Assembly: GCA_025201365.1 (NCBI GenBank)
Contig: JAIXMF010000071.1
Coordinates: forward strand, 1 to 46,256
Origin: Syncephalis plumigaleata
Lineage: Eukaryota; Zoopagomycota; Zoopagomycetes; Zoopagales; Piptocephalidaceae
Length of the DNA: 46,256 bases
Reading direction: 5' to 3'
Position 1 is the first letter of the stretch; each line of letters opens with the position of its first letter. Below the pieces are notes generated by a model. The model did no database searches. It worked only from the letters and a program-made list of their open reading frames with translations, and had not been told where the DNA came from. Positions 3,640-44,700 of the stretch are shown in pieces. Position numbers and translations under genes: made by a program.

Positions 3640-4630
3640 AGTACGCGTCTTCTTCGTGTCAAGTGCATTCTAGCTGCTTCCCTTGTTCCCCTTTCCCTTC
3701 TTTACCAATATGGGTCCTCTTCGTGCTAATCTCATTTCCCTTGCCAGTAAACAACACATGTCTACTTCCTCTTGACTATATGCTAGCTATTCCTTCCTCT
3801 TTTATTTACCTGTTTACTTTCTCAGTAATACGCGTCTTCTTCGTGTCATTGTATTTTTCTATTCCTTGTTTATTGCTTCCGGCTATTCTTTTGTTTACTA
3901 CTAATCTCAACTCATTTATGTGCTCATTGTCTTTAGTATCCTAGCATCTTTGTTATTGCTTGTTATACTCATTAGCATACACTGTTCTGTCTTGTATGCG
4001 TAATGTTGCTTATGTGTCTGCTATCCTCGCTGATACACGTCATCTCCACCTTGTCTTTCTTCCACTATTCGTTCATATATCACTCCACTCTATCATAATA
4101 ATATCTATACGTTGTTATTCCACTACAAACATACGTCGTTTCTGCAAGTTGTTTGAGTATGCGTGTCTTTGTACCGAGTACTTATTACTTTATTCCTTGT
4201 TCCTTTTCTTTCTTTCTTAACAATATATCACTTATCGTTAGTCTATTCCTCGGTCTTGTTCCATTCTATTCTTGACTACCGGTAACGTACAACCTGCTAA
4301 GCGTGCTGATCAGTTATTCATTCGCGGCATTTGCTATTCCTCGCTATACAGACAACGCTGCTTCTTGTCTATACAATAGCGTGTTTATTTACCTTAATTG
4401 CCGCTGATTGGCATAATAGGGTAATGCAAATAACTAAACGTGCACGCTATATGCATTCTGCTCTTCTTCTCTTCTGCTTCTTCAGCTCATTTTCTACCGT
4501 TTCTCTATGCTTTCTCGCTCTCACATATCACTTACACGTCTAATAAATTGCCATGGATCACACCTGTCCATTTTGTTTATCGCTTTCTTTGGTCACATAC
4601 ATGTAGACATTATCGTAGTGTTATCAGGTG
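3640..4630 (+). repeat. Repeat family R2, copy a (inverted relative to 21150-22090)
   Basis: About 0.95 kb whose complement matches 21150-22090; over 4331-4543 the coordinate sum with the other copy is constant (25782), so there is no net length change there. The left part (about 3640-3860) carries three copies of the unit containing CGTCTTCTTCGTGTCA, which is also found on the complementary strand of R1. R1 and R2 therefore share one module and differ in the rest. Similarity to the other copy stops near 4630. ORFs inside are low-complexity and not considered coding. Confidence 0.75.
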
Positions 4631-5150
4631 TAAGCGTATATGTATGATCCTTTGCCATATACGTGCTAACAATTCATTAATTGGAATGATTGGTATACTG
4701 CTCGTTCTTGATTGTACTATATTGCCAGCAAACAGCGAAGGCTCATTTTAGTTTAATCATTCTATTTTATTGCCGTATTATAATCTTGTCTTGACTGTAG
4801 ATGGCTTCGTGGCATGGACCTGTGTTTATATGAGTGCGTTAACGTACCAATATTGTCTTTATTGTTATATTTCAATGATCATTGAATGTACGATTAATTA
4901 AGCATCGTTATTATTACTATAGCACATCCAGACGTAGAGTTCGATAACGACTCGATATACAGCATATGATCATGGAGTATGCGAGTATTTATAATGTGCA
5001 TCCGATTTATTTGATATGGTATAATTGACACTGTAAACTATCGTTGAAGCATTTGGTAAAATCGAGTATTGCATTCTCGTTGTAAGCATATATGCATACG
5101 CGGTCATTCCATTCACTAGTTTGCTAGCTATTAAATTGTTAATAACATTA
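4631..5150. other. AT-rich spacer without recognised gene
   Basis: No coding similarity recognised on either strand. Sequence resumes coding character only at about 5160. Confidence 0.35.
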
Positions 5151-16987: not shown

Positions 16988-17800
16988 AGATAAATCGTGT
17001 ATTTACTAAATGTGTTATAATGATAATGTTTATTATTGAGTGCATAGATAGCAACGAGTGAACAAAGTGAATACACGATAAATAATGTAATAAACAAGCA
17101 GTAATTAGTAGAATGACTGACTTGTCACGAACGAGCAAGGAATGAGCAAGAAAGGTGTATAAACACGTATGTCAGTTTATTTGAAGAAGCAGTGTATGCT
17201 TGTAGGCAGATAGAGTATGTAGATGGCAGTAAACAAATGAAAATACAAATAAAAGCATGACGTAAAGGTGGCATACAAACAGATGACGGAAAAGAGCGGT
17301 AAAAGTAAAAGGTGCATATTACAACGAGAACAGTGAAGGCTTAAACGTTGATAAATAAGCAGGACAGTGACAGGAAACAAAGGACTAGAACGAACAATAA
17401 ACAATGCTTATTGGTATAATAACAATAACGACAAGTGAGCATGTAGATAGTTTAGAGCAAGAGGAAGAGAACAAAGAGATAAATAAACGGCATAGAGATA
17501 GTATGGCAGAATAGTTGCTATTGGGAATGTGTATGCTAAAGTGAAAGAGGAAGTAAGTGGAATGCGAATGACACGAAGAAGACGCGTATTACTGAGAAAG
17601 TAAACAAGTAAATAAAAGGAAAAGGAATAAATAGCATATAGTTAAGAGGAAGTAGACGCGTATTGTTTACTGACAAGTGGAATGTAGTTGACACAAAGAA
17701 GGCAGCGTTGGTAAAGAGAGAGAAAGAGGGAAATGACAGGGAAATAGATACTTGGAAATAGATTAGTAAACCATTAATGTCATTAGACGTCAATAATAAA
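16988..17800 (-). repeat. Repeat family R1, copy b
   Basis: Second R1 copy, same orientation as 1027-1950 (offset 15959 at 1445/17404). It is shorter on the right because it has fewer of the 45-60 bp internal units. The right end runs directly into the broken Gag-like remnant. Confidence 0.75.
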
Positions 17801-18502
17801 TACGTCTTGTGCATGCTTTGAAGCTTTCGTATAAAGTGGTTGACGTATTCTTCCGCTACCAAGAATTATGTGGCGCTGTTTCGCGTGTAGAATATGTTCA
17901 CCACTTTTTGGATCCGATATTCATCATGGGAAGAGCTGAGCGTATTTCATCATAAGGTTTCTGACGATGTTCGTGACATAGATGGCTTTAAGGACTGGAG
18001 GATGCTTTGGTGCTTTGGGCCGCCAAATTACTTCGCGGGAGATTTTTCTTCTTATCGCTGCATCTGACACTACTCTGTTAGCGAGTATTTCTGCGTAGGT
18101 CGTTGCTGTGATGGGTGATGGACCATTAGCCGTTTGGTTTAGCATCGCTCGTATTGGCTAGTGGTTAGTTAGCTTGGGTTGCTTGGAGGCTTCCGCTAAT
18201 TTCTTACCTACAATCGTCATAAGTTTTGTCATGTCTACGATTCTTGCTCTTGCTCCGGTTATCGGCTCACACAAATTACGTAGCTGGCCAAAGGCCTTTT
18301 CGATTTTCTTTGTAAGTGAATTGCTAATTTGCTCGTCGATCATCTTTTGAACCTTTTCCTCCGTTAATATGTCGTACATATCGAGAGAGCGTGGGTTCAT
18401 TAAGGAATCGTTGTGCTCTTCGTAGGTGTTCCTCGCGTATCGCATAGAGGTGTCTTCGTCATCAGAGTTGCTTTCCGGAATTGTGCTCTCGAAGAGAGAC
18501 AT
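17790..18502 (-). pseudogene. Degenerate Gag/LINE-ORF1-like gene remnant
   Basis: Read on the minus strand from 18502: a 114-codon ORF with an acidic N-terminus and a coiled-coil-like middle (TEEKVQKMIDEQISNSLTKK), a stop, then a 73-codon ORF from 18145 ending near KAIYVTNIVRNLMMKYAQLF. Past further stops and frame changes, translation continues with features like KKVVNIFYTRNSAT and FLVAEEYVNHFIRKL down to about 17800. The pattern (IYVxxI ... KxVxNIxYxxxxxxFLVxxxYxxxFxxKL) recalls the C-terminal part of Gag-like/ORF1 proteins next to non-LTR retroelements in zygomycete-grade fungi. No reverse transcriptase follows; instead the remnant is cut off by repeat R1b. The class assignment is inference from recalled patterns. 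Confidence 0.4.
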
Positions 18503-20906: not shown

Positions 20907-21149
20907 CGTAATAAAAATGCTGTATCTATTGCATTTAGTCATGATATGAATGTCGATGCTATAACAATATATGGCCGTCCAACAAAGTAAGTAGGTTAAA
21001 ATTAGACATTGCTAATAAATGGAAAATTAATATTAAAGTAGAAGTATGAAAGGTAAGCTTAATAATTATAATAAAACAAGTATCAACTGATTCAATTTGC
21101 GAGGATAGAACAAAAGACTTTTACAAGATGTAAAGCATTTACATATTTA

Positions 21150-22090
21150 TACATGTGGTAACACTACAACAATGTCTACATGTATGTGACCAAAGAAAGA
21201 GATAAATAAAATGGACGGGTGTAATCCATGGCAATTTATTAGACGTGTAAGTGACGTGTGAGAGCAAGAAAGCATAGAGTGACGGTGGAAAATGAGCAGA
21301 AGAAGCAGAAGAGAAGAACAGAAGAATGCGTATAGCATGCTAGTTTAGTTACTTGCACTGTCCTATTATGCCAATCAGCGGCAATCAAGGTAAATAAACA
21401 CGCTATTGTATAGACAAGAAGCAGCGTTGTCTGTATAGCGAGGAATAGCAAATGCCGCGAATGAATAACTGATCAGTACGCTTAACAGGTTGTACGTTAC
21501 CGGTAGTCGAGAATAGAATGGAACAAGACCGAGGAATAGACTAACGACAAGTGATATATTGTTAAGAATGAAAGAAAAGGAACACGGAATAAAGTAATAA
21601 GTACTTGGTACAAAAACACGCATACTCGAACAACTTGCAAAAACAACGTATGTTTGTAGTGGAGTAACCGCGTGTAGATATTATTATGATAGAGCGGAGT
21701 GATATATGAACGAATAGTGGAAGACAAGGTGGAGATGACGTGTATCAGCGAGGATAGCAGACACATAAGCAACATTACGCATACAAGACAGGGCAGTGTA
21801 TGCTAATGAGTAGAACAAGCAATAACAAAGATGTTATGATACTAAAGACAAATGAGCACATAAACGAGTTGAGATTAGTGGTAAACAAAAGAATAGCCGG
21901 AAGCAATAAACAAGGAATAGAGGAATGCGAATGACAAGAGGGACAGTGTTGGGAATATGCGAGGAAGTAAATAAAAGAAAAAGGAATAACTAGCATATAG
22001 TTAAGAGGAAGTGGACGCGTGTGTGATTTACTGACAAGTGGAATGTAGTCAAGACTAAGCAGACAGCATTGGTAAAGAAGTAAAGGGAAG
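21150..22090 (-). repeat. Repeat family R2, copy b
   Basis: Inverted copy of 3640-4630. Similarity runs from about 21150 to 22090 on the minus strand. Relative to copy a, the tandem-unit module at its start is reduced to one clear unit plus a decayed one. The ORFs here are mirror images of those in copy a and are low-complexity. Confidence 0.75.
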
Positions 22091-22109
22091 TAATAATGAA
22101 TTGGTACTT

Positions 22110-22350
22110 AGATTGCGCTTGACTGGCCTGGTATCCATGATCATACAATTCGCTCCTCATACTTTTCAGTAGCAAATCTCCCGCTTCCTTCTTCTGCCAC
22201 GTGATTCCAGCCAATCAAAGGTCAGATCGGAAATCTATATGAATTTCACCGTAACCCTCTCACTATCGGCCGTAACTCATCTTTATGATAAGAAGTGGTT
22301 CTGCTTCTCATTATAGATAAATAATCAATATCTCAATTTGCCTTGCAACG
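22110..22350 (-). pseudogene. Coding-like fragment truncated at repeat R2b
   Basis: On the minus strand, about 35 codons (22110-22214) read AGITWQKKEAGDLLLKSM followed by RSELYDHGYQASQAQ. This is ordinary protein-like sequence unlike the skewed repeat next to it. Upstream, other frames give short protein-like pieces (YHKDELRPIVRG) interrupted by stops. Family not recognised. It stops where R2b begins. Confidence 0.25.
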
Positions 22351-22950
22351 GTTCTCGGCAATCTACGGGTACTAAGTGAGCTAGTAAATCTTGTATTAAC
22401 TTAGTAAAGATGCACTATTAATGACTTTCACCTACTCAAGTACCTATTCTCTTTCCTTAGCTTTTAGCTATGTAAACGCATACGCATTATTATCAGAAAT
22501 AAAACAATTAACATTGAAACACATAAAAAATACTCCAGCTATCCTAGCATTATCTTTATTGTATAGTTTAGTAAGAACTTTCGAATCTTTCAGTAACATT
22601 ATTTCTGGCTAACGCAATTGTCGCGTTACAATTAATACATTGCCATTTCTATATGCTGTATAAAATAACAGCAATATGCCATTTGTAATACTTTATCATC
22701 TCATAGTTACTTGCTTCAACTACGATCTACGTAAGTATCGCAACTTGAAAAACACATTGACATGTTTTTCGTACAATTGCGGTAGCAGCCACTGCTGACT
22801 AAATCACCTGATCTTAGTAATTTGGTTCATCTCATTTACGATTCAGCTGAATCAGCTTCGTGTATTACTAACCATTATCCACTGAAGTTGACTTGGAAAA
22901 CAGATGACAAATTCAACTCACCACACACTTGACTAATCTACGCCTCGACA
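22351..22950. other. AT-rich spacer upstream of the pirin promoter
   Basis: No gene recognised on either strand. A 63-codon ORF (22421-22612) has no conserved features. Confidence 0.35.
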
Positions 22951-22957
22951 CAAAAGC

Positions 22958-22965
22958 TATAAATA
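22958..22965 (+). promoter_or_regulatory. TATA box upstream of pirin gene
   Basis: TATAAATA lies 114 bp before the first ATG of the pirin gene (23072). With initiation about 30 bp downstream, the leader would contain no ATG before 23072, which supports the longer N-terminus. Confidence 0.4.
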
Positions 22966-23071
22966 AAAAGCAAACGTAACACTTTGCCTCGTCACTTTAT
23001 CCAAAACAACACGCTTCTACTTCAACAACCGTAACTAATAACAAACGTTATAGCATACGGTTATTTGTTAT

Positions 23072-24362
23072 ATGCTATCTATTCTAGCCTCATTACTGAC
23101 TAGTTCATATACGTTAGCCTTACTCGTCGTATTCGTTGCTATTTTCTACATTCAACAACAGCTCGAATTATATTCAAGTTTGAACCAACCTTCCAACATG
23201 AGTGCTGCCGCTACATTCCGTTCTATTGCCAAAGTGGTCGCTAACCGGGAAATGGCCGAAGGCATGGGAGCTCGAGTTCGTCGCAGTATTGGCACAGCCG
23301 AAGTGCGTCGACTTGACCCATTCCTTCTTCTGGACCACTTCACCATCAAGCCACCTGCAGGCTTCCCGGATCATCCACATCGTGGCTTTGAGACTGTAAC
23401 CTACGTTCTTAAGGGTAAGTTTCTATAATGGATTCTTAAAAAAGCACTGTTTAACATAGTACTATTATCATTATTATAGGAGCGGTTGAGCATGAGGATT
23501 TCGCGGGACATCGTGGTCGTATTGGACCAGGGTAAGTATAATATAACTCATTATAACTGCAATATTTACTTACTTGAACAATAAATATAGCGATCTACAA
23601 TGGATGACTGCAGGACGCGGTATTGTCCATGCCGAGATGCCTGCTGTACAGGAGGAATCGGTCGGTCTTCAGCTATGGATTAATTTACCTGCCGATCAGA
23701 AAATGTGTGAGCCAGCTTATCAGGAAATGCTAGACAAGGAAGTACCACGTGCCTCACCATTAGGCGAGGATGGCGGTGCTGAGGTGAAGGTTATCGCTGG
23801 CGAACAGTTTGGTGTACATAGTAGAGTACGAACCCGTACCCCTATCCTTTATGTGGATGTTAAATTGGAGGCAGGCAAGGAATTGGAGCATGTAAGTAGT
23901 AGAATGCGTGATAGCAACCTATGAAGTATAACTAATTATTATTATTGTTAAAATACATAGACGATACCCGCCTCTTACAACGGTCTTATTTACATTCTAG
24001 AAGGTAGTGGTGAATTCGGTAGTGGAAACACGAAATCGACCCTTTATCATACGCTACTACTAAGCCATGACGGTAATCGTATGAAGGTCAAAGCGGGCGA
24101 TGATAAGCCACTGCACTATCTGCTTATTGCCGGTGAACCACTTAATGTAAGTCCCCGTTTGTGGCGATGAAAAGGAAGTTGAATAGCGTAGATTAGACTG
24201 ACACTTGTGCTATTACGTTTATAGGAACCAGTAGTACAACACGGTCCATTTGTAATGACAGATGAGGAGGGCATTACCAATACGATGCTTGATTATCAAA
24301 CGAACAGCAATGGATTTGAACGTGCACGTAAATGGCGATCAGAGATTAGTGGTCGTCATTAG
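23072..24362 (+). CDS. Pirin-family cupin protein with hydrophobic N-terminal extension
   Basis: Pirins are iron-binding bicupins; animal pirin is a nuclear transcription cofactor and some microbial ones are quercetinases. Exons: 23072-23414, 23480-23531, 23591-23891, 23961-24146, 24225-24362; 339 residues. From the second Met (23198) it would be 297, the usual pirin length. Family hallmarks: RSIGTAEVRRLDPFLLLDHF, FPDHPHRGFETVTYVL and AGRGIVHAEMP. The likely metal ligands are His101, His103, His145 and Glu147 in the long form. The C-terminal cupin carries IYILEGSGEFG and HYLLIAGEPL. The first 42 residues contain a strong transmembrane/signal-anchor helix (LALLVVFVAIFYIQ), unusual for pirins. 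It either targets the protein to a membrane or compartment, or translation really starts at 23198. Its stop is about 35 bp from the left arm of the large inverted repeat. Confidence 0.93.
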
Positions 24363-24397
24363 GCACGGCAATGATTAATTAACATTATAGTGACTCG

Positions 24398-24584
24398 CAC
24401 AACTGCCGGAATGTATTCCACTTTTTGCGATTATATCCATTACTCCGTATAAGCTTACTCAATTCTATTCATTTATAATAAAGCTTGTTTCCCTTTATCT
24501 AACGATATACAAATGATACTATGTTAATTAATAAATATTTATTCTCTATGCTTCAAAGATCATCACTGCATTCCGGCAGTTGTG
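24398..24584. mobile_element. 187-bp MITE-like unit with 16-bp perfect terminal inverted repeats
   Basis: CACAACTGCCGGAATG (24398-24413) is exactly complementary to CATTCCGGCAGTTGTG (24569-24584). The interior is AT-rich and non-coding. The same unit forms the outer end of the right arm (29287-29473), where the outermost copy has two substitutions. No target-site duplication is obvious, so the class is uncertain. Confidence 0.5.
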
Positions 24585-25760
24585 AGGGTAAAATCCAATG
24601 TCTAATTATCTTCTAATAATCTTGTTAATACCTTATTAATAATGTGTAGAATTTTGTAATGGAATGTTAATAAATATATTGACTTTACTAATGCCTTTCA
24701 TTATGATTTCCACTTTCCATTTGCTCCTCGCTACGCTAACACCACACTCTCATCGAATACACTCCCATACCTGTATTCCTCTTCTCATTGCTCGTTTGTT
24801 GTTCTCGGTCACCTTCACTATTCGTATATTCCTATTCCTATTGTTACTGCTGCTGCTCTAGCAATAAGTCAACGTCACGTCATACGTTTACGCGTTCTAT
24901 TCGTTTTCTCTATTGTCTTTACTTCTTTGCAGCTTGTGGTGCTTTTCTACGGACTGCCACTGCAATTACACGTTATATGCACTTTATTCCACTGTGTTTG
25001 TCCTCCACTCTATAGCACTCGTACATGATAAGGCTACACTGTTTATTTGTATTCTATGCTGGTGCTTGTGCCTGTGCACGATACTCCTGCTACTTGTTGA
25101 CCCTCTCCCTTGTTTATCAAACTGCGATACTGCACTCCCGTTAGATCCGTACCAGTTACCCGTATTCTATCACTGTATGCTCCTATGGAATACTCACACT
25201 GTTTGTTTACCGGTCTGTATTCGTATTGTTATTAGTCTGTATTGACTACTAGGAGTAGCTTTATATGCGTACATGCAGGTTAGTCGACCAGGAATATACT
25301 GCTATAGCTTCTCCCGGTAGTATGCCACTTGCTAAAACATATTGTTTGGTTAATATCACTCACAGCGAACACTGCTTCTCAATAGTTTATTGACAGCACT
25401 GCTTGTTGCTTGTACTGATAGCTCGTTCGTTTACTCGTCTACTACTCTATTCATATACTCGTATCTCTATTGTTTATTTGTAATCTACACGGTAAGTGGT
25501 GTATACGCGGTATTCACTCTATTCACTAGCTGCTGCTACTGCTCCTCTTTCTTGTCGTGTCAACTCTGTTTATTTGTTTATTTGTTTATATTCTATAAGC
25601 ATATGTGCTCATTCGCTCTATTTACTCCTACTGCTATCCATACTACTTGTTCCTCTGCTTCTATTCTCATTCAGCCAATAAACACCGTATCAACTTCATA
25701 CATGTCATTGTATTCTCTACACTCTATTGAGCATGCTTTGCTTTCAACCGATGTAGCTAT
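24398..25760 (+). repeat. Left arm of large inverted repeat (about 1.36 kb)
   Basis: The reverse complement of this arm recurs at 28111-29473. Paired coordinates always sum to 53871 (for example 24664/29207, 24913/28958, 25390/28481), so there is no net insertion or deletion along the arm. Long stretches are identical, and differences concentrate at the outermost 40 bp and in the inner 200 bp. The pyrimidine-rich strand is the plus strand here. Identity stops near 25760. No coding capacity is credible; ORFs are low-complexity and mirrored in the other arm. Confidence 0.92.
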
Positions 25761-26134
25761 GCCAGTAAGCAAGCATTCACCATTCATAATTATCAATTAG
25801 CATTAGTCATTCTGTATAGTCATTGTATATCTAGTTGTATACACGTAGTCAAGTCCATTGCTGGCTATACTCCTAATGACGAGCACATCATATTGCAGCA
25901 GTACATTTAAAAGCTATAATAATATTGTATCGAAATAGTGAATATGTTTTATTGATGATGAAATTATTAGATCATACAGCGATAGCAGTAGTTGTATGGT
26001 CATGCTGTGCGAGTGTCATCACATTCTCATTGTCTATATGATTGCTAATCGATTCAATGACATATTAGTATTTTAGTAGAATGAATCAGCTATTGCTCGA
26101 TACTTACCGTATACTAATAGTGTATCGATTATAA
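25761..26134. other. Unique spacer inside the inverted repeat, 3' of the kinase-like gene
   Basis: No gene seen; AT-rich sequence between the left arm and the kinase-like stop codon. Confidence 0.35.
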
Positions 26135-27363
26135 CTAGAGAGTGCGTGGTGGCAGTCCTCCTAATGCTCGCATAGGAGAGGAACAAGTAAACCGGTCATA
26201 TTCTATTGTATAATACGCTCGTGTAAGGCGAAACACCGCAGACATGGCCGCTTTTGCATCGCCTAGTTCTAACTTGGCATAACGTGGACGTTGATTAAAC
26301 GTTTTTAGATATTCTAATGCGACTTCTCTGGTTATTCCATAGTTGGAGGTATAAGGATTATGCATTTGATGGATAAAATAAAGGACAAACGGTTCCAAAA
26401 AATCCTTCATCGCATCTTTAAGCCCATGACAGCTCTCGTAGTTTTGACGTGGATTCGGTGACGAGTACTCTTCATTATTCGGATTTATCGGTCTCCAGAA
26501 AAACTGCTTTCTAAATACTTCTGTTGCATCTAAATCAATGATTTTTACGCCAACTATTCTGCCAGTGGGATCTTGCTGTAACATGATATCTACACTTTGT
26601 TGTTAGCGCATTACATAGTTATAAATGCTTACTTACTTCTCGGATGTAGATCATAATGAATAATGCCGGCATTGTAAAGGTAAATCAAGCCTATAAAACA
26701 ATTAGTAATCATGTTATATAAATGACCATAATGCTTACCTTTAATAATATCAGATAATATCTCTGAAGTAATAATAAATGCCTGAGAAACGGTATGTTCC
26801 TTAAAGTATTCTGATAGAAGCACACCATTGATGTAGCTGTAAAGATGGCAGAAATATTCAATATCATTGTCTTTTTTATCAAAGCCAAATTGATGCAACG
26901 GATCCATAACATGCTGTCGACCTATTGTGTAGAAACCTGCCAAATTCTTCTTTGCTTCCTTCAATGCCTGTTTTATGCCATATGATGAGTAAGGCTATTC
27001 GAATAATAGATCGATACACTTACTCTGAATGCATCTACTTCATTAGATGCCTTGTCGCATTTCATAAAGGCAACTTGATTATTCCAAGTTACTCGAGCAA
27101 GACTAAGCTCTTTATCATCTCCACCACCCCAGCGTATATCCGATAATCCAAGCTTTTTCTGGTGTTCCATAACGTATTCTTGGGCAAAGGTGGTTATAGG
27201 ATGGTCACCTATAAACAAGTTAGCAGACATCGGATAGATCACATATGAATGGCTTGCCTTCCTTATTGTAAACACCATCATACGGATGAACACTAGATAT
27301 TTGAGATAGCAGTGCTAAAGCACAAGTGCTAATAGCCAATGCAGAATGTGGAGTTACTCGCAT
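26135..27363 (-). CDS. Predicted secreted protein-kinase-like protein, 5 exons
   Basis: Exons (minus): 27258-27363, 27024-27208, 26739-26967, 26637-26690, 26135-26589; 1029 nt, 342 residues, intact frame. The N-terminus MRVTPHSALAISTCALALLS is a typical signal peptide, with likely cleavage near residues 24-26. The body shows a degraded but complete kinase core: QVAFMKC (candidate VAIK lysine), GIIHYDLHPRN (catalytic-loop Asp and Asn, the Asn created across the exon 4/5 junction) and KIIDLDAT (DFG-equivalent DLD). The C-lobe is short and ends in LGGLPPRTL. Intron 1 (27209-27257, 49 bp) uses a GC donor (GCAAGC). The gene is the only one inside the 2.35 kb spacer of the large inverted repeat. 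Secreted or luminal kinases are uncommon in fungi; the substrate is unknown. The key residues suggest an active rather than a dead kinase, but this is inference. Confidence 0.8.
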
Positions 27364-28110
27364 ATTGTTCGTTACGACCTAAGCGCAAAGAAGTGGATGT
27401 ATTTATGTTGTGCGTGTAAATGAGGTGAGGATAGTGAGCTATCGAATTGTTCACGGCAAATGGCTGCTCATTTATAGGTGAGTAGTCGACGGTTGCGGTA
27501 TTAGAATGTCGTTTAAGTAAAAAGTAAAATAAACAAAATACGGTATCGCTTACCATGTGTGATTACCGATTATAGATATTAGATGATATTTATAGATCTG
27601 ATTCTATTACAGCTAACATGAGTGAATTCAGAATAGTGTATTGAATTTAGCTGCGATTGAAACGTGTAAGATCGATATTGAAATGCAATGGAATTCGATT
27701 TAGTTTTAATAATAGCTCAATCAATATGATGCATTGGTATGCAACTAGCTAACATTAGAGCATTCGAGATAATAGACAAGTCATTGAATACACTCCAACT
27801 ATGATGGCAATGACCATTAAACCATTGTTTCTACTTGTCAGCTATACTGTCATTCAGTTATAGTTCATGATTCAAGTATTAGGTAGTAATCGTGTATTCA
27901 TGTCAATGCACGCACGTTCACGTCAGATGATCAGTATCTATTGTGTTGTTCGATGGTTTGCTATACAATTCATTACAATGACTACAGGTAAATATACATC
28001 CATTGATATTAATGCATCCTCAGCGAGTGGATGAGTAATATATTCTAGTTGACTGCATACTGCTGATAACTGAATAAGAATGATAGGAATAGCAGCAGTA
28101 GTAGTAGTAG
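27364..28110. other. Upstream region of the kinase-like gene inside the inverted repeat
   Basis: Contains the promoter of the minus-strand kinase-like gene. A 75-codon minus ORF (27329-27556) overlaps the true start in another frame and shows no conservation. No second gene recognised. Confidence 0.4.
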
Positions 28111-29473
28111 CTAGCTATATTAGTTGAAAGCAGAGTATGCTCAATAGAGTGTAGAGAATACAATGACATGTATGAAGTTGATACGGTGTTTATTGGCTGA
28201 ATGAGAATAGAAGCAGAAGGACAAGTAGTATGGATAGCAGTAGGAGTGAATAGAGCGAATGAGCACATATGCTTACAGAATACAAACAAACAAACAAATA
28301 AACAGAGTTGACACGACAAGAAAGAGGAGCAGTAGCAGCAGCTAGTGAATAGAGTGAATACCGCGTATACACCACTTACCGTGTAGATTACAAATAAACA
28401 ATAGAGATACGAGTATATGAATAGAGTAGTAGACGAGTAAACGAACGAGCTATCAGTACAAGCAACAAGCAGTGCTGTCAATAAACTATTGAGAAGCAGT
28501 GTTCGCTGTGAGTGATATTAACCAAACAATATGTTTTAGCAAGTGGCATACTACCGGGAGAAGCTATAGCAGTATATTCCTGGTCGACTAACCTGCATGT
28601 ACGCATATAAAGCTACTCCTAGTAGTCAATACAGACTAATAACAATACGAATACAGACCGGTAAACAAACAGTGTGAGTATTCCATAGGAGCATACAGTG
28701 ATAGAATACGGGTAACTGGTACGGATCTAACGGGAGTGCAGTATCGCAGTTTGATAAACAAGGGAGAGGGTCAACAAGTAGCAGGAGTATCGTGCACAGG
28801 CACAAGCACCAGCATAGAATACAAATAAACAGTGTAGCCTTATCATGTACGAGTGCTATAGAGTGGAGGACAAACACAGTGGAATAAAGTGCATATAACG
28901 TGTAATTGCAGTGGCAGTCCGTAGAAAAGCACCACAAGCTGCAAAGAAGTAAAGACAATAGAGAAAACGAATAGAACGCGTAAACGTATGACGTGACGTT
29001 GACTTATTGCTAGAGCAGCAGCAGTAACAATAGGAATAGGAATATACGAATAGTGAAGGTGACCGAGAACAACAAACGAGCAATGAGAAGAGGAATACAG
29101 GTATGGGAGTGTATTCGATGAGAGTGTGGTGTTAGCGTAGCGAGGAGCAAATGGAAAGTGGAAATCATAATGAAAGGCATTAGTAAAGTCAATATATTTA
29201 TTAACATTCCATTACAAAATTCTACACATTATTAATAAGGTATTAACAAGATTATTAGAAGATAATTAGACATTGGATTTTACCCTCACAACTGCCGGAA
29301 TGCAGTGATGATCTTTGAAGCATAGAGAATAAATATTTATTAATTAACATAGTATCATTTGTATATCGTTAGATAAAGGGAAACAAGCTTTATTATAAAT
29401 GAATAGAATTGAGTAAGCTTATACGGAGTAATGGATATAATCGCGAAAAGTGGAATACATGCCGGTAGTTGTG
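28111..29473 (-). repeat. Right arm of large inverted repeat (about 1.36 kb)
   Basis: Inverted copy of 24398-25760. The outer end at 29473 carries the same MITE-like unit (29287-29473). It lies 284 bp upstream of the carboxypeptidase start codon. Confidence 0.92.
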
Positions 29474-29757
29474 TGTGTAACCATACTAGTTTGTCTGCTC
29501 CTTCCAGTCTACCATGTATATAGCATGGATATTGATGTTGTTAAAAATAGAAATGGCAATATTTACTAATAAAAGGCTAAGCAACCGCAAGTACGCACCA
29601 CGTCTTACGTTTCTCTTTCACTCCCTTATTACACTTGTCACCCTATTGCTACTCAACTCAATCTCTCACTTACTCTCCTTTTTGTCTCCATTATTGATAT
29701 TTGTCAATACTAACTATTCTACCTGTTCTATATCGCTTATTAAACTACACTTACACT
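29474..29757. promoter_or_regulatory. Upstream region of the carboxypeptidase gene
   Basis: 284 bp between the right arm and the ATG at 29758. It becomes pyrimidine-rich toward the start codon (about 29620-29757), as often seen in fungal promoters and leaders. No specific element called. Confidence 0.35.
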
Positions 29758-31418
29758 ATGCGACAACTCTATTTGTTAGGAGCACTGCTCCTGGCGGTTC
29801 CAGTTTACGGTAATGTCCGTTGGAGGTCGACTTCGATGCGACAAACCGTCTTCCAACAGCCAGAAACAACCTTGAGTGACGTATTCTCCCCAGTTAATAG
29901 TATACTGAATGACGACGACAATTCGTCCGGTTTCGAGCAGTTCAAAGAGGAGACTAGTCCAGCCAAGCTATTCTCCGTGCCAGCTGGCGAGAAACCCGTC
30001 AAGACATTGCGTCAAGAAGAGGACACTACGGTGCTCACGCTGTCCAACGTGCCTGGATATTCACTTCAATTCAAAGAACCGAACCTCTGCGATACAAGTG
30101 TCCGCCAATACTCGGGATACCTTAACATCAAAGAGGATAAACACTTTTTCTTCTGGTTCTTTGAATCACGCTCATCTCCAGCCAAGGATCCACTTGCTCT
30201 TTGGCTGAACGGAGGTCCTGGCTGCTCATCCCTGCTCGGTTTATTCATGGAGCTCGGACCTTGCCTTGTCAACGAGAACGGCAATGATACACGTATCAAT
30301 CCATCAAGCTGGAATACTCAGGCCAACGTGATATTCTTGGATCAAGTAAGTGACAATGCTTAAATGATTAATACCATCATTATTAACAATATCTTTATTT
30401 GCAACAATCTCGATAATGACGATGATAATAGCCAGTGAAGGTTGGCTACTCTTACGGCAATAGTCCATCCACTTCTGATGATGCCGCCAAAGATGTCTAC
30501 GCTTTCTTACAACTATTCTACGAAGCATTCCCGCAATTCCAAAAGAATGACTTCCACGTATTTGGCGAATCTTATGGTGGACATTATGTGCCAGCCATAG
30601 GCGACGAGATTCGTCGTAGGAATCATGGTGCGACCAAGGACAATTACCGAGTGGTACCGCTGAAGAGTATTGGTCTGGGTAATGGATTGACTGATCCACT
30701 AGTGCAGTACAAATACTACTCGAAGATGGCTTGCGACAACTCGTATGCTCCAGTGCTGAGTAAATCGGAATGTGCCGACATGGACAGAGCCTATCCTACA
30801 TGTGCCAGACTCATCAACTTTTGCTACAAGTATTCCTCGGCATTTACGTGTGTGCCAGCATCGACCTATTGCAACAAGCGTATTCTCGAGCCGTACATGC
30901 TGACCGGTTACAATCCATACGACGTGCGTGGCAAATGTCCTCCTAACACACCACTGTGCTACAAGGAACTCGAAGCGATCACCAAGTACTTGAACCAGCC
31001 GCATGTCCTTCGTGCAGTCGGTGCCAAAGTGGACAAGTTCGAGCAATGCAATATGGAAGTGTATCAACGATTCACCGGATCAGGCGATTGGATGCGTCCT
31101 TACGTTCATCGTGTGCCAAAATTACTAGAAGAAGGCATTCGAGTGCTTGTCTATGTGGGTGATGCCGACTTCATTTGCAATTGGATGGGCAACAAAGCAT
31201 GGGCGGTGGAACTAGAATGGTATGGCAAAGCTCGCTTTGCCTCTACCAAGGACAAGTCATGGATTGTCGATGGAGAAGAGGCAGGTATGGCGCGCGAGAG
31301 TGGCCCGCTTACTTTCTTGCGTATTTATAAGGCAGGCCATATGGCGCCGTACGATCAACCGACTAATTCACTTGACATGTTTAATCGCTGGTTGCATAAC
31401 AAGAGTTACGCAGCATAG
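29758..31418 (+). CDS. Serine carboxypeptidase (carboxypeptidase Y type, S10)
   Basis: Vacuolar or secreted exopeptidase that removes C-terminal residues. Two exons (29758-30345, 30432-31418) give 524 residues, with an 86 bp intron at [11 protein letters not shown]. The start [18 protein letters not shown] is a signal peptide; residues about 20-110 look like a propeptide, as in CPY. Catalytic features: [10 protein letters not shown] (about 150-158, oxyanion region), [11 protein letters not shown] with nucleophile Ser about 243, GDADFICN with Asp about 440 and [10 protein letters not shown] with His about 499. Cysteines at [12 protein letters not shown] and nearby fit the CPY disulfide pattern. 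The substrate-binding loop reads PVKVGYSYG, with Lys where yeast CPY has Asn. I choose this Met because it gives a clean signal peptide; upstream sequence is promoter-like. Confidence 0.96.
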
Positions 31419-31600
31419 ATTGTGATAGCTAGACATGAATATTCTTTCGTTTTCCTTCTTAGCTCATTGAATGATGATAATAAAGAATAGTTACATGGTG
31501 TGCATGATGGATTTGTAAATTGTTATTGCTACCATTACATGTTAATGAAGTGACACGGCTATACATATATACATATCAACATTTCTGCATTGTTTAATGT

Positions 31601-32390
31601 TTATTCATATTCTCGAGGGAATAAAAGATGCATATTATACATGCCTGTTATCGCGGTTTGTATCGACCATTTCAATGTCGTGGTCATTGAATAGCCTCTC
31701 GTGTATCGACATATGACGAAGCTGAACAGCATCTGACTCGCATGCAAACCAATGTATAGCCAATAAGCAGCAACCACTCCATTCTCGCCTATGGTGCAAG
31801 TAACAATGCCTAATGGCAGTGGATGTTCTATGACAGGTATGCAATAGGCATAGATAATGACGACGCCCAATGATACGAATGCAATATACGTCGCTAGTGG
31901 CAATCGTTTAAAGTATTCCGGTCGTGTAGAACGCTAGTCCATCGAGTAGTAGTTAGTACGCATATGTACATTTGTATTTCATGTTACTCACGCCTACAAG
32001 TGGCAATAAACAATGGGCACCGCATAGCATCGTGCTTGCCATGCACGCAATAGTAGTGGGCCATGTGTAGCCACGACGACAACAGATAATGGTGGCGATA
32101 TACGTTTCAGTGAAATGGCAAAACAATAGAATCCAAAATGGTACACCTATGTAAAATGTGCCTAAACAGCGTTGTATAAAACTAACAGGCCATGGTGCCA
32201 TTGAATGAGGGACAACGTAGATTGACACGATCAATCCTACCATTAGTAGGTTGGCGATATACATCGATAATGACAGTGGCTGCCATACTCGATAATCATG
32301 ACGTTTATCCACTTCTTTATTCGCATTCAATATGGATGATGTCTGTCCATTCGATAAAGTGCTAGTATTACTACGTTGATGCAACGACAT
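31601..32390 (-). CDS. Multi-pass membrane protein with two similar halves (TMEM254/DUF4499-like)
   Basis: Two exons (31992-32390 and 31601-31933, intron 58 bp) give 243 residues with about six hydrophobic segments. Each half contains a related block: FCHFTETYIATIICCRRGYT followed by TTIACMASTMLCGAHCL, and LHASQMLFSFVICRYTRGYS followed by TTTLKWSIQTAITGMYN. The H-x6-8-ICxxRxGxxxxTTxxxxxQT pattern resembles the small DUF4499/TMEM254 membrane domain, here as a tandem pair. Function of that family is unknown. A longer start at 32459 would add a hydrophobic signal-like segment; I use 32390 because the sequence after it (MSLHQRSNTS) is a normal cytosolic lead-in. The ends converge with the carboxypeptidase gene. 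Confidence 0.65.
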
Positions 32391-32622
32391 TATACTCGAT
32401 GACACTAATAAAAGAAAGCAGGAAACCCATAAACAATGACGACCACAATAACAATTCAAGTGAGTGGACGGAATAGAATAGACACAAAGATTAGTGATAA
32501 ACTAATATTGCCTAAACTTTTTTATTAGAATCATTACTGATTATCAAATCAAATCAAAATATATCTATCTTTTTCTTGCCTGTTGCCATTGTCATATTAA
32601 TGGTCCCAAGCCATAATATACC

Positions 32623-36616
<3,994 letters not shown>

Positions 36617-36801: not shown

Positions 36802-37813
<1,012 letters not shown>

Positions 37814-38857
37814 TGTGCTTATATCTTTACTGATACTACTACTGATAATATATAATGATAATGATGATATCTGATGGATATACTGCCCGCTAACTAGTAG
37901 AGGTACGTGTGCGTATGTACGGTTCAAAAGTAAAGGTGGTGAACACGAAAGGGATAGTCAGGATGAGCGTATCTCCTTTTGGAACAGAATCGATATATGT
38001 ATATGTATATATCAAGTTTCAACTAGGAATAGGGTCAGTAGAAGGGTCAATACCAACAGTAGCAACAAATAGCCTAGTGTATATCACGGAGTACTAGTAG
38101 TGTTTTGGTTTTGAAAAACAAAAAGAGAATGGCAATAGGAAGATGGGCGACAATAGGTGGTGACGACGACTTTGTTTCCTATATATAAATATAGATAGAT
38201 AGAGAGTAAGATAACGGTTTAGTTACTCTCGATAGACGTGGACACACACACACACACACACAGATAAAGCGAGATAGACGTACAATCACGAGAGTGTATG
38301 TGAATAGACAAATGCTACGAGGAGAGAGAAGGAGATGACAACAACGGCAACAACGATACCGTTCAAAGTTAGCGAGAGAGGAGAGAAGCAAAGGGATCGA
38401 ATCATGACAATGTATTTATGTATACATCTCGACTACCTGTTTTTTAGTGGTGGAACCATAGACTTTGTAAGTTGATTGGACGATTGTCGTCATCCAATGG
38501 ATTCTCAATGTAAAGTCTGTTCTTGTGTCTTGTTGGCAGTAATACACACTGCAAGCCCTTTGTTATCACGACAAGCATTACCATTAGACGATATCTACTA
38601 GGGAATAGCTAGTATCAAAAGTATGTATATATATGATATATGATCGTGTCTATTAGATACACTTATAAGCAGTGTTTGATTACATTACAAACAGAATAGA
38701 GTGTAAGTATTTGTAAGTATATTATCAAATGAGAAGCATATCTACAAACTTACACGTTGAAGAATAAATAACAAGGTACAACATCCATTTACTAGGAATA
38801 CATCTAGCATGATTAGCCATAGATTATTTATGTCATAGATCGACATTTGCTCATTGA
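37814..38857. promoter_or_regulatory. Divergent intergenic region RAB6 / GUP1-like, with CA repeat
   Basis: About 1 kb between divergent genes. Contains a (CA)11 microsatellite at 38241-38262 and purine-rich stretches around 38100-38400 that generate low-complexity minus-strand ORFs. No additional gene recognised. Confidence 0.45.
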
Positions 38858-41600
38858 AATAGTAATAATACGAATACTAATGCGGAGTTTTCATTCACTC
38901 GTCTCTTTAATACTACGCTTGTCACTACGCTTTATTCATTCATCGTGTTCTTGCTCCCTTTCTCTCTCTTCTTGCTTGCCATTATTTTACATTGCGTTTT
39001 TTGTTATAGTGACTTTTATCGACCAGTCTATCCAAAGGTAAATACTGACTAGACTTGTTTGTTGCTATTGTCTTATTTATATAGACATAATCTCATCAGT
39101 TATACGATTGAATATCGTGCATATAGTTTGCTTCTTAGGCACCAGTAGTGTCACTGCCATATACCGCCATCTCTTTACTATTGGCACGTATGCGAGAACG
39201 ATCACCGACTAGTCGTGTCGAGTTAGCGACATTCCCAAGCGACAACAACAACAACAATAATAATACAGCAGATGACACAAGTGTTACTGTCGTAAAGGAT
39301 GAACGACGACACAGTTCTACCGATACGATATCACCTTCACGATGGAATACGGGCGAGTATTACGTTTACTATATAGTAGCTGGTATTGTTATTCCCTATA
39401 TGCTATGGTCTACGTACTATTTGAGTTCAGGTATGTCTCTATTATTGATAAACTTGCTATATACATGACATATTAATTAATGTTGTTGTTGTTATTACTG
39501 CTGCTATGCTATGCTATTAGATCATTTACCTAATTATAAAGTATATGAACATACATTATCAAATGGTTGGCTATTCGGCAGGAAACTAGTAAGTAACTAG
39601 CATAGTCCATAGTCTATATTCATATGTATACTAATAGTTTATGATTTATGTTAGGATAATACAGATGTTCAGTATAGGGAATTTCGTCATCACATTCCAT
39701 TGTTAGCGGTAGTCGCGCTCATTTACGTGACCATTAGTCGATTACTGGATGTTTTCACATCTACTACACGGAATGGTCAACTTTTGCGTAATGTATCAGC
39801 ACGTCGTGTGTTCTATCTCGTATCATCAGCAGTGTTTATGGTGATCATTAGCGGGTCTAATCTCATTAAGATCCTACTGATTATCAGTATCAATTACGCG
39901 ATCGCTAAAATTGGCAAGGGAACACGCTGGAACCCTATCATCACTTGGATATTCAATCTAACAGTGCTACTATTTAACGATCAGTTCGAGGGTTATCGCT
40001 ACGGCGGTATTAGTAGTGCCTTTGAATTCCTAGTAGGTTACAGTTGTAATACTCATCGTCACTACTACTACTACTAAACTCTATCATTTGTTAGGATAAT
40101 CATCGTGGTCTTATGCCACGCTGGGAAATCCACTTTAAATTTGCCATGCTACGTATGGTTTCATTTAACATGGACTACTACTGGTGTTGTCAAGTAGCTT
40201 ATCAAGAAATAGAGGTACTCGTTTGTTTATTTGTTTACTATTATAATCGATTATTAACACTTATATAGAACAAAGAACAAACCGATAATGAACGTGCACG
40301 TATTCAATCACCACGTAAAGCACACGAGTACAACTATTCGAACTACTTGGCCTATCTCTTCTATATTCCACTTTTCCTTGCTGGTCCAATTATTACATTC
40401 AACAACTTTGTAGCACAAGTAAGCATTTTGATTATTGATCATCATTATAGAATACTATAACTCATTCAACAATGCTGTTAGATGCGTCGTAAACCAACCG
40501 AGATTACCGATAAATCCACATTACTCTACGCACTACGTGTACTCGGTGCCATACTCTGCATGGAGACAATGATGCACTACTTTTACGTGGTCACCATTAG
40601 CAAGACACATGCATGGTCTGGATTCACTCCATTCCAGATTAGTATGGTGGGCTACTTTAATCTCAAGTTTATATGGTTAAAGGTAAGCATGATCATCAAT
40701 CACGACACTATTGTTTGTAACGACCACATCATTACCTGTACTAAATCTATGTAAATGACATACTAGCTATTAATCATTTGGCGATTCTTCCGTTTATGGG
40801 CCATGGCTGATGGCATTGAAGTCATCGAGAATATGAATCGTTGTATGAGTAACAATTATTCAGCTCAAGGATTCTGGCGTAGCTGGCATAGAAGTTACAA
40901 TCGATGGCTTATTCGGTAATTGAAGATACATGAATATATATATATATATATATATGACTATGATAGAGGTACTAATTGATTTGCTCCATAATCGATATTA
41001 GATATGTGTACATTCCCTTGGGTGGTAGCAAGTATTCCGCCTATAATATGTGGCCGGTATTTACATTCGTGGCTATATGGCATGATGTATCGTTTAAATT
41101 ATTGGCATGGGCCTGGCTAATCTGTCTATTTATCCTACCCGAGATCGTGTTAACCCGTGTATTCCGTCCGTATCGTGTAAGTATCACGTAATGATTAGCA
41201 TGTAGATGTCTCTTTATGCTCGCTTCTATTCACTGATCATTCATATGCATAATAATTATAGAAATTAAAATACTATCGACACATAGCAGCTATAGGTGGT
41301 GTAGGCAACATTCTAATGATGATGGTGGCCAATCTAGTTGGATTCGCTGTCGGTGTGGATGGTATAAAAGAAATGGCCAGACTCATTGTTACTCCCAGTG
41401 GTAAGTAGCAGTATCGCATTTGTTTATTAATCACTATTTATTGCTAACACGTATATATTAACATATATCTACGTATTATCATTGTTATAGGTATTGGTTT
41501 CTTAATCTTTGCTCCTATTTGCGTGTTCATTGCCGTGCATCTTATGTTTGAAATTCGTGAAAGTGAAAAGAGACGTGGTGTCACTGGTAACAATTTCTAA
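38858..41600 (+). CDS. GUP1: Gup1-like membrane-bound O-acyltransferase (MBOAT)
   Basis: Gup1 remodels GPI-anchor lipids in the ER; related proteins (HHAT) palmitoylate Hedgehog. Exons from 39139: 39139-39430, 39521-39588, 39655-40032, 40095-40214, 40269-40418, 40482-40682, 40767-40915, 41002-41176, 41262-41400, 41491-41600, giving 593 residues in frame. Signatures: [77 protein letters not shown] and [16 protein letters not shown] with the MBOAT active-site His. About ten hydrophobic helices. An Asn8 run (39242-39265) lies in the cytosolic N-terminal segment. The preceding exon (ending 39037, open from 38858) supplies a signal-anchor helix ([19 protein letters not shown]) and joins in frame, but contains no ATG. 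The start codon must be in a further upstream mini-exon, with an acceptor perhaps at 38862, so the 5' end is unresolved. Confidence 0.9.
39242..39265 (+). repeat. AAC/AAT repeat encoding poly-Asn in the GUP1-like gene
   Basis: AAC and AAT units encode about eight consecutive Asn in the hydrophilic N-terminal segment of the MBOAT protein. Confidence 0.85.
40932..40955. repeat. (AT)n microsatellite in a GUP1-like intron
   Basis: Uninterrupted AT units inside intron 40916-41001. Confidence 0.85.
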
Positions 41601-41780
41601 TGATTCTTATTTGTGACATTGTTGTTACTCGTACATCTACAATGAATCATGATAGAGGATGTGACACTTTAGTAATAATAATATGTGTAATGTCTAGTCT
41701 TTTTAATGTTTGTTTACTCATTGAAACACAATAACAATAATGATAACAAAATATAGATGGACAATGCTTCTTTTAACGAA

Positions 41781-44700
41781 TTATACTGTGATTTGAGGAT
41801 TAGGGATGCTTCGTATATTGGATGTTGATGCATTAGTAGAGGACATTGGTGTTTGTCTACCGAATACACGTCGTACTAGTAAGATTAGCCATGTCCATCG
41901 ATCGGCATTATGTAGTGGAACACTAGCATTCGGTTTACGTGTCTCTTCTTGTACAATATCGGCATCATCAGGATGAACACTACGCTGATAACTATAGAGT
42001 TGATTAGTATATGAATTATTATTAATAACAATAGAGTACTTACTATTGATATAGATAGTCAGGTAAACAGCAAACAGCAACAGTAATGGCTATACCGAAA
42101 TAGTGACCACCCATTGTGTACAACTCAAACATGACAGGTTCCTCCAAATAGTTGAACAACTCTAGGCCATACATGAATAACACATTGGCTACTAGACTAA
42201 GTCCAACGGTGGCTGCAAATACCCAAACCCATCGTCTAATAATAATAACAGCAATCATTAGTATAGATAAATACAAATATACAATGTCATCTACTTACCG
42301 AATAGTTAAAGCAACCTTGATACATACGACGGTTAGGGCAAAATTGCCTACTAGGAATGCTTGAGTGGAATGACTAACAGCTTTACCATTGGATAGCATG
42401 ATACCATCACCTATTACAAAGATGAAAGCACCAAATATCACTAATATCATACATGAATTAATAAGAGCAATTGGTATTATGATGGCGTATACACAAACTA
42501 ATGCTACTTACCAACAGAATGCCAAACGGAAGCAAATGCCCAGCGTAACTCTAGATTGACATTCCAGAATCGACCATCTTTAACCGATTTATATAGACGA
42601 GGATACTATTGAATGATTAGACAATTAGTATGACATGACAATACTCTCATCCTTCTATTCTCTACTTACCATGGCAATTTTATCTTCATCAACGTCTTTA
42701 TCAAAAATGGCCATTGCAATGGGGAATAAACTAGTATAGGCGACATTCCACAAGGTGAGAAAGTAGGTGTTATAGACCGCCTAATCACGATGTAAAGAGA
42801 GGTGGTATAAGTATACATGTTGGTTGTGTTATTATAGAACATCATATTGCATTCTATCCGATTTGCTTACCTCGCCACACCATGCATTAAAGAATCCAAA
42901 CCAGAATTGTACGGTAATAAGGGCAATACTCTTGTAGAGTGAATACAGAATAATATTCGCAATACGCATATAGGAATATCGACCGTGTACCGATAATAGA
43001 CGACGTAATGCTTTGAATTCCACAAAAGAGTAATCGCTAGCACGTACTGCCTGTGCACCTTCCATGCCTTCAATGCCCACACCTACGTGTGCTTCCTATT
43101 TCATTGTTACATACATACATACATGTAAGTAAATACACACAAATTAATAAACAAGTATCATTTGCATATTACACGTTACTCACCTGAATCATACTGACAT
43201 CATTGGCACCATCACCAATACTAAGGGTTACCTTGAATAGTTGCTTCTTTACCAAGCGTACTACTAAAGCTTTCTGTAATGGTGTGACACGACAACAAAT
43301 AACCTAACATTCATCGAGTATGATAATATGACTATGATTAGTTACACATGTCATGAATTGCTGTTTAACATCGTAGAGGAGACATACCGAACGACAACGA
43401 ACACCAATTTGTAGAAACTTCTTAGCCAAATCAGGTAGTAGTAGAATATAAACGAGCGATTCACCATCTACTACTAGAGCATTCTTAGTACTCTAATGAT
43501 CATAGTATTAGTGACAAGTAAGCATGATGAATGACAACTTACATCGTCGACTGCCTCGATTTCACCAATGAATTGATCGAGTAGTGCCGCACATTCAGGA
43601 CCTGATTTAGCATTCAACGTCATGATATTCATGGATGCCGATATTAAACGCGATGATTTGCCTACTTTAATGGCGGTTTCTTGTTTATCACCCGTAAGTA
43701 ACCAAATACGAATATCGCACTAATCATCATAACACATTCATTAGTATAACTTTCATCTATATACATATATTAGATTACTAGTAGTATTACCTGTAATAGA
43801 TATTGAATAGTTTCTGGTACTTGATCTTGTAATTTATCCTCAATGGCTGAACAACCCAGTAAACGTAAACGTACTTCCGCCAACTCTGATGCTCTTGCCA
43901 CTTTTCGATCACGATTACGTAGTGCACATTCTGCCTTATCGTAACGACGTGCAAATGCCTCGTACTCTCCCGTTTTGAATTGTTTCCATGCCATCATTAG
44001 GGTACGTAGTCCATTCACCGAGAACTCGAGTAATGCGTCATTCGTAGCTGCTAGCACTTTCTTATCGGTATCATCTCGTAGTCGTTGAGTAATAATGTTA
44101 TCTGCACCTTTACAAAACAAAAAGGTACCTAATTATAATCATACAGTTATATTATTACTACTGTTATACATTATTATTGTGATATCAAATGATTTACCTT
44201 TGTCATTACGAACAATCACCGACATACGCTTACGATCTGATGTGAAATCAAGTATGCGTAAGAGTTCATAGGTTTCTTCTTGACCTAGATGTATGTTTAG
44301 TCTACGTAATTACCATTGACAACTATCGTGTATACAACTTACCAAATACTGAAATAGTAATAATATCCTTGGAACGATGCAACAATAATCCGTCATCATC
44401 TCGTAATCCGTATAATAAGGCTGATTCATCGGGTGATGGTGATTCATACAATACACTAGTGCCATCTTTATCGAGTACAGGTATGGCAGCGTGACAAATG
44501 GCGATACATCGTATAAAGTTAGCAATTTGCTCCTTTTCTTCCGTATCTGTTATTGTCTACTCATTTATGACAATGAACAATGTTAGTATTCATACTGTAA
44601 TGCAAGTATCATATCACCGATCATTTACCTCATAGTATTGCTTCATAGCACCGACATTGGCTGTTTCATCAAATGTTTGATAACCAACATGCCATTTGGC

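Follow-up and report, generated by a model that had tools for sequence, protein, structure and literature searches.

We analysed a stretch of 46,256 nucleotides from the fungus Syncephalis plumigaleata (hereafter the window), which is contig C353 of a 32.6 Mb assembly in 383 contigs. Within it, a long inverted repeat encloses a spacer with a single recognisable gene, which encodes a kinase-like protein (table 1). On a homologous contig this spacer lies in the opposite orientation.

The inverted repeat and the kinase-like gene

The arms of the inverted repeat pair with a constant coordinate sum of 53871 and are 99% complementary over 1374 nt. The repeat was already described in a first-pass annotation of the window and is real, except that the 1363-bp arms given there start 12 bp further in. 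An ungapped comparison of the two arms revealed 18 mismatches in 1374 positions, distributed very unevenly: 7 in the outermost 41 sites, none in the next 1131 and 11 in the innermost 202. In an alternative alignment, two 4-base gaps near 25566-25580 compensate each other. The outer part of the left arm occurs at full length with at least 97% identity only in the window and on two other contigs, C207 and C112 (best 40 of 118 candidates scored). A partial match at C113:78656 covers 326 of 343 bases at 82%.

Table 1. Position of the inverted repeat, the enclosed gene and the neighbouring genes in the window.
Feature	Position	Strand	Remarks
Left arm of inverted repeat	24386..25759	+	1374 nt
Outer part of left arm	24386..24709	+	includes a ~190-bp stretch with inverted ends CACAACTGCCGG
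Inner ~1043 bp of left arm	24710..25752	+	35 matches outside the locus among matches scored, 89-94% identity, a few partial
Spacer between arms	25760..28111	.	2352 bp; reversed relative to flanks on contig C112
Right arm of inverted repeat	28112..29485	-	1374 nt
Kinase-like gene	26135..27363	-	5 exons, 342 aa, hydrophobic N-terminus, intron 1 GC-AG
Pirin gene, left neighbour	23072..24362	+	PF02678 in two exons; intron-split; end read by eye
Serine carboxypeptidase gene, right neighbour	29758..31418	+	PF00450 in two exons; intron-split

The claim that the arms enclose one kinase-like gene was borne out. With splice sites picked by eye, its exons lie at 27363-27258, 27208-27024, 26967-26739, 26690-26637 and 26589-26135, separated by one GC-AG intron (27209-27257) and three GT-AG introns. 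Across 20 copies of the family, intron 1 has GC-AG ends in 15 and GT-AG ends in 5. The spliced protein matches the Pfam domain Pkinase (PF00069) with an E value of 1e-9 and 38.6 bits, for a cut-off of 31.7, while a first gene model that read through introns 1 and 3 scored just under the cut-off. The same domain was matched at E 0.1 or better by 7/7 family members, which were chosen among the 12 copies free of internal stops. A profile built from these seven matches protein kinases of known structure, with a best E value of 7e-8. Residues K85, D187, N192 and D210 are all present in the window protein and are the predicted catalytic lysine, HxD aspartate, asparagine and DFG-type aspartate, with motifs assigned by eye. 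The first three are kept in 12/12 stop-free copies and D210 in 11/12. The sole deviating copy, on C68 (L015), has a glycine in place of D210; among the single-arm copies, it alone has its long arm 3' of the kinase. Judging by eye from its signal peptide-like hydrophobic start, the protein is probably secreted.

The gene is one of many in this genome. Protein matches to the kinase comprise 147 pieces in 56 places on 33 contigs (best 116 of 231 candidates scored), where places result from grouping at 1.5 kb and include haplotype duplicates. When viral contigs were scanned with the kinase alignment, 19 pattern matches came up, and tblastn found no relative.

The window contains other repeats, at 1027-1960, 3642-4632, 16991-17806 and 21150-22078. 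The stretch around 21140-22112 has 31 listed matching places at 86-91%, one of them elsewhere within the window.

Orientation of the spacer and similarity of the arms

We compared the window with the two homologous contigs. C112 keeps its order and direction on both sides of the inverted repeat, matching window positions 21967-24385, 29490-32523, 32562-33500 and 37000-41998 at 97-98%. The flanks adjoining the arms are identical at 1711/1744 (98.1%) and 1617/1629 (99.3%) positions. In contrast, the spacer is alike only when reversed: 2206/2348 positions are then identical (93.9%), against 865/2035 when it is not. Because the spacer is reversed, the match just inside the arms is crosswise, window-left with C112-right and window-right with C112-left. 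We therefore retain the suggestion of an invertible segment: the assembly supports an inversion of the spacer between collinear flanks. The palindrome has identical outer ends on both contigs, which lends no support to the earlier proposal that the low divergence of the arms reflects a recent duplication. We read C112 as the other haplotype of the locus. On the left, C207 agrees with the window at 99.4-100% of positions and shares the window's left junction and orientation. It ends inside the spacer, with many small gaps toward its end; we read it as a second, poorer contig of the haplotype of the window.

The differences among the four arms are informative. Among the central 1131 sites, 45 separate both arms of the window from both arms of C112. 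Left and right arms differ at none of these sites in the window and at 26 in C112, where the differences are patchy. None of the central sites tracks the flank and none tracks the spacer, while four of the 41 sites at the outer arm edge track the flank. Over all sites compared, left and right arms differ at 18 in the window and 34 in C112. This is the expected residue of repeated copying from arm to arm with occasional crossover, and it fits gene conversion inside each haplotype together with inversion by crossing over between the arms. The ongoing gene conversion envisaged in the first-pass annotation can thus be recognised as a pattern.

We consider the following reading the most probable, with a probability of about 0.7. 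The locus would belong to a family of kinase-bearing segments dispersed over the genome, here with a long inverted duplication around the gene. Its arms would recombine with each other. Repair without crossover would copy one arm onto the other and keep their central part identical in each haplotype, a process that we infer from the pattern of arm sites. Occasional crossovers would invert the 2.35-kb spacer, and this may be how two homologous contigs came to carry the kinase gene in opposite orientations, as they do in the assembly. The mechanism is most likely ordinary recombination between inverted repeats.

Several observations weigh against this reading. The haplotypes differ by 5.3% in the arms and 6.0% in the spacer, for only 0.7-1.9% in the adjoining flanks, and a simple inversion leaves this excess unexplained. 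No site among the 1374 of the arms tracks the spacer, hence the arms hold no trace of a crossover position. The right flank is not wholly unique, since window positions 31242-32474 have further matches of 97%, one on C11 and one elsewhere on C112. The absence of arm sites that follow the spacer and the duplication of part of the right flank slightly lower our confidence. Furthermore, the match with C112 stops left of position 21967, and the homology picture comes from two haplotypes only. Comparisons across the kinase family, all within one assembly, are divided: two paralogous comparisons show opposite orientations and three other pairs agree. The pairs that agree (C362/C379, C81/C35 and C109/C101) look allelic or closely related. 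Of those that do not, C68 and C113:48k are collinear at 93% in the left arm and the right surroundings, with the kinase segment between them reversed at 82%; the inverted repeats that they share are only ~180-200 bp long. The surroundings of C118 and C13 are collinear at 92-93% with the kinase flanks reversed at 90-92%, but C118 lacks the kinase and one flanking repeat was seen for C13. Both pairs are paralogues and thus show that orientation differs within the family, not that one locus flips. The C118 copy (L012 1315-3318) has kept both flanks of the kinase segment without the kinase itself.

The main weakness of the inversion reading is its reliance on the assembly. With near-identical arms of 1.37 kb on either side, a 2.35-kb spacer could be misplaced during assembly, and polishing could inflate the similarity of the arms. 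Accordingly, the strongest rival is an artefact in which assembly reversed the spacer of one haplotype and polishing evened out the arms. All the evidence comes from the assembly, and C207, the only other contig found to cross a junction, stops in the spacer close to its many small gaps. On the other hand, the arms retain their 18 and 34 differences, flank-linked edges and haplotype-specific sites, and opposite orientations are also seen between C68 and C113:48k, where the shared repeats are short, even if these are paralogues. We consider such an artefact unlikely.

The dispersed repeat and the kinase family

The inner part of the arm (~1043 bp) is a dispersed repeat. We queried the contigs of the genome with the arm and scored the best 40 of 219 candidates, which gave 42 matches; two shorter than 80 bp were left out and the other 40 were counted as arms. 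Two of these are on C353, two on C112, one on C207 and 35 elsewhere. Among the scored matches, the complete arm, with its outer and inner parts, is restricted to the first three contigs, and a complete pair of arms to C353 and C112. We grouped the 35 outside arms by hand, using listings of neighbouring kinases that covered only part of the candidates. Twenty of the 35 adjoin a kinase copy. Seventeen lie 5' of one, namely 15 single arms recognised by spacer matches and those at C109:128 and C141, the former with ~1.9 kb of other DNA between the arm and the kinase copy. One, on C68, lies on the 3' side, and two bracket a single kinase copy on C271, with different outer parts. The remaining 15 have no neighbouring kinase among the matches listed. 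Five of the latter were inspected (two on C118 and those at C184, C46:163k and C112:2348k), and the kinase was absent from the stretch examined. One condition under which the first-pass annotation would have given up its interpretation was that the arms were dispersed repeats sitting here by chance. This applies only in part: the inner arm is indeed dispersed, but 20 of the 35 outside arms adjoin kinase copies. Among the places visited in this survey, the long arm on C271 and on C1 has a neighbouring tandem repeat whose period is close to 109 bp (L010 1228-2505 and 7304-9501; L027 5018-5801), and the start of C184 (L014 1-1591) matches its own reverse complement at 95%, which may be an effect of the assembly.

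We then compared 20 kinase copies with each other, in 190 pairs for all regions but the 3' flank, where 171 pairs were used. Similarity is lower in the three large exons than in introns and flanks. Exons 2, 3 and 5 have median identities of 0.68, 0.70 and 0.64, and the short exons 1 and 4 reach 0.79 and 0.78. The medians of the four introns lie at 0.79-0.86, and those of the flanks are 0.89 on the 5' side, with one 100-bp stretch at 0.73, and 0.92 on the 3' side. We also used a restricted set of 11 copies (55 pairs) with no internal stop, leaving out near-duplicates of the C101:227k copy. It gave identities of 0.63-0.70 for large exons and 0.75-0.85 for introns, with the short exons, at 0.79 and 0.76, within the intron range. 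In this set the median nonsynonymous divergence (dN) is 0.37, the synonymous divergence (dS) 0.63, the intron distance 0.25 and the distances of the 5' and 3' flanks 0.12 and 0.07. Positive selection, tried as a candidate using dN/dS, found no support, as dN is lower than dS in 55/55 pairs. A search for shared tracts singled out 14 of 181 divergent pairs in which none of 400 shuffles reached the observed run. Such tracts are only suggestive, as uneven constraint along the gene could yield the same signal. The divergence pattern fits a homogenisation of the flanks and, less so, of the introns, which the exons would escape; constraint on introns and flanks is the alternative. One may speculate, tentatively and with rather low confidence, that a family of probably secreted kinases in repeat-bracketed cassettes uses the repeats as recombination handles. 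Conversion would then keep arms and flanks alike while the coding parts diverge and reshuffle, and the inversion described above would be a visible side effect.

The same survey bears on whether the locus is a foldback element with a captured gene, as had been suggested, or another DNA transposon that carries the kinase gene between 1.37-kb inverted ends. Its ends are long and inverted, the inner arm and the spacer are dispersed, and a dispersed repeat seems to end just at the outer edge, judging from one other place (L042). Yet the complete pair of arms is confined to the two haplotypes among the scored matches, and arms elsewhere mostly occur singly, on the 5' side of a kinase or with none listed. 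No copies with these exact ends at unrelated sites and no empty site with a clean target duplication were found among these matches. By eye, there is no clear target-site duplication, with a 2-base TA being possible, and no transposase among the open reading frames of the surrounding repeat units. We thus find a transposon very improbable here.

Comparison with known systems and significance

A regulated switch, in which flipping alters the expression of the kinase or its neighbours, is equally hard to credit: both orientations occur in the assembly, and the kinase gene points toward the pirin gene in the window and toward the carboxypeptidase gene on C112, but in either orientation the gene is accompanied by a near-identical arm and by the 748 bp of spacer that precede its ATG, and no recombinase gene was recognised in the spacer, with no search aimed at recombinases made in the window or the genome. 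Given the similarity of the arms, and since the gene takes its near upstream region along, the inversion is most likely a by-product of recombination between the arms and not a programmed switch.

The closest known counterpart is the flip/flop region of Saccharomyces chromosome XIV, where, as summarised by its authors, inverted repeats are homogenised within genomes and the segment between them occurs in both orientations, which they attribute to gene conversion with occasional crossover (PMC9731477). Both systems share these traits. Here too, near-identical inverted repeats lie at both ends of the segment, the segment is found in both orientations between collinear flanks (as read from the assembly only), and the arms are homogenised within each haplotype, although C112 retains its 26 central differences. 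The systems differ in scale: flip/flop is described as spanning 24 kb and 15 genes, with 4-kb gene-bearing repeats, and was studied across strains and species (PMC9731477), whereas the present locus has one gene in 2.35 kb, 1.37-kb arms without a recognised gene and with a dispersed inner part, and is known from two haplotypes of one assembly. Human polymorphic inversions are similar in being mediated by inverted repeats and reportedly recurrent; they concern another organism, and no paralogous family of gene cassettes is apparent in that account (PMC3961182). The rhoptry kinases of Toxoplasma and its relatives resemble the present kinases as an expanded, lineage-specific family of secreted kinases (PMC3682881). 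They belong to another lineage, and the likeness is one of description, secretion being guessed here from the N-terminus. A literature search at the level of titles and abstracts recognised no published kinase family as the counterpart of this cassette-borne one.

The locus offers a compact case in which the homogenisation of inverted repeats and the inversion of the gene that they enclose can both be read from one assembly. It gains interest from belonging to a large kinase gene family that is associated with a dispersed repeat. Since the large exons of this family are more divergent than its introns, a link between repeat-driven recombination and the diversification of probably secreted proteins becomes testable.

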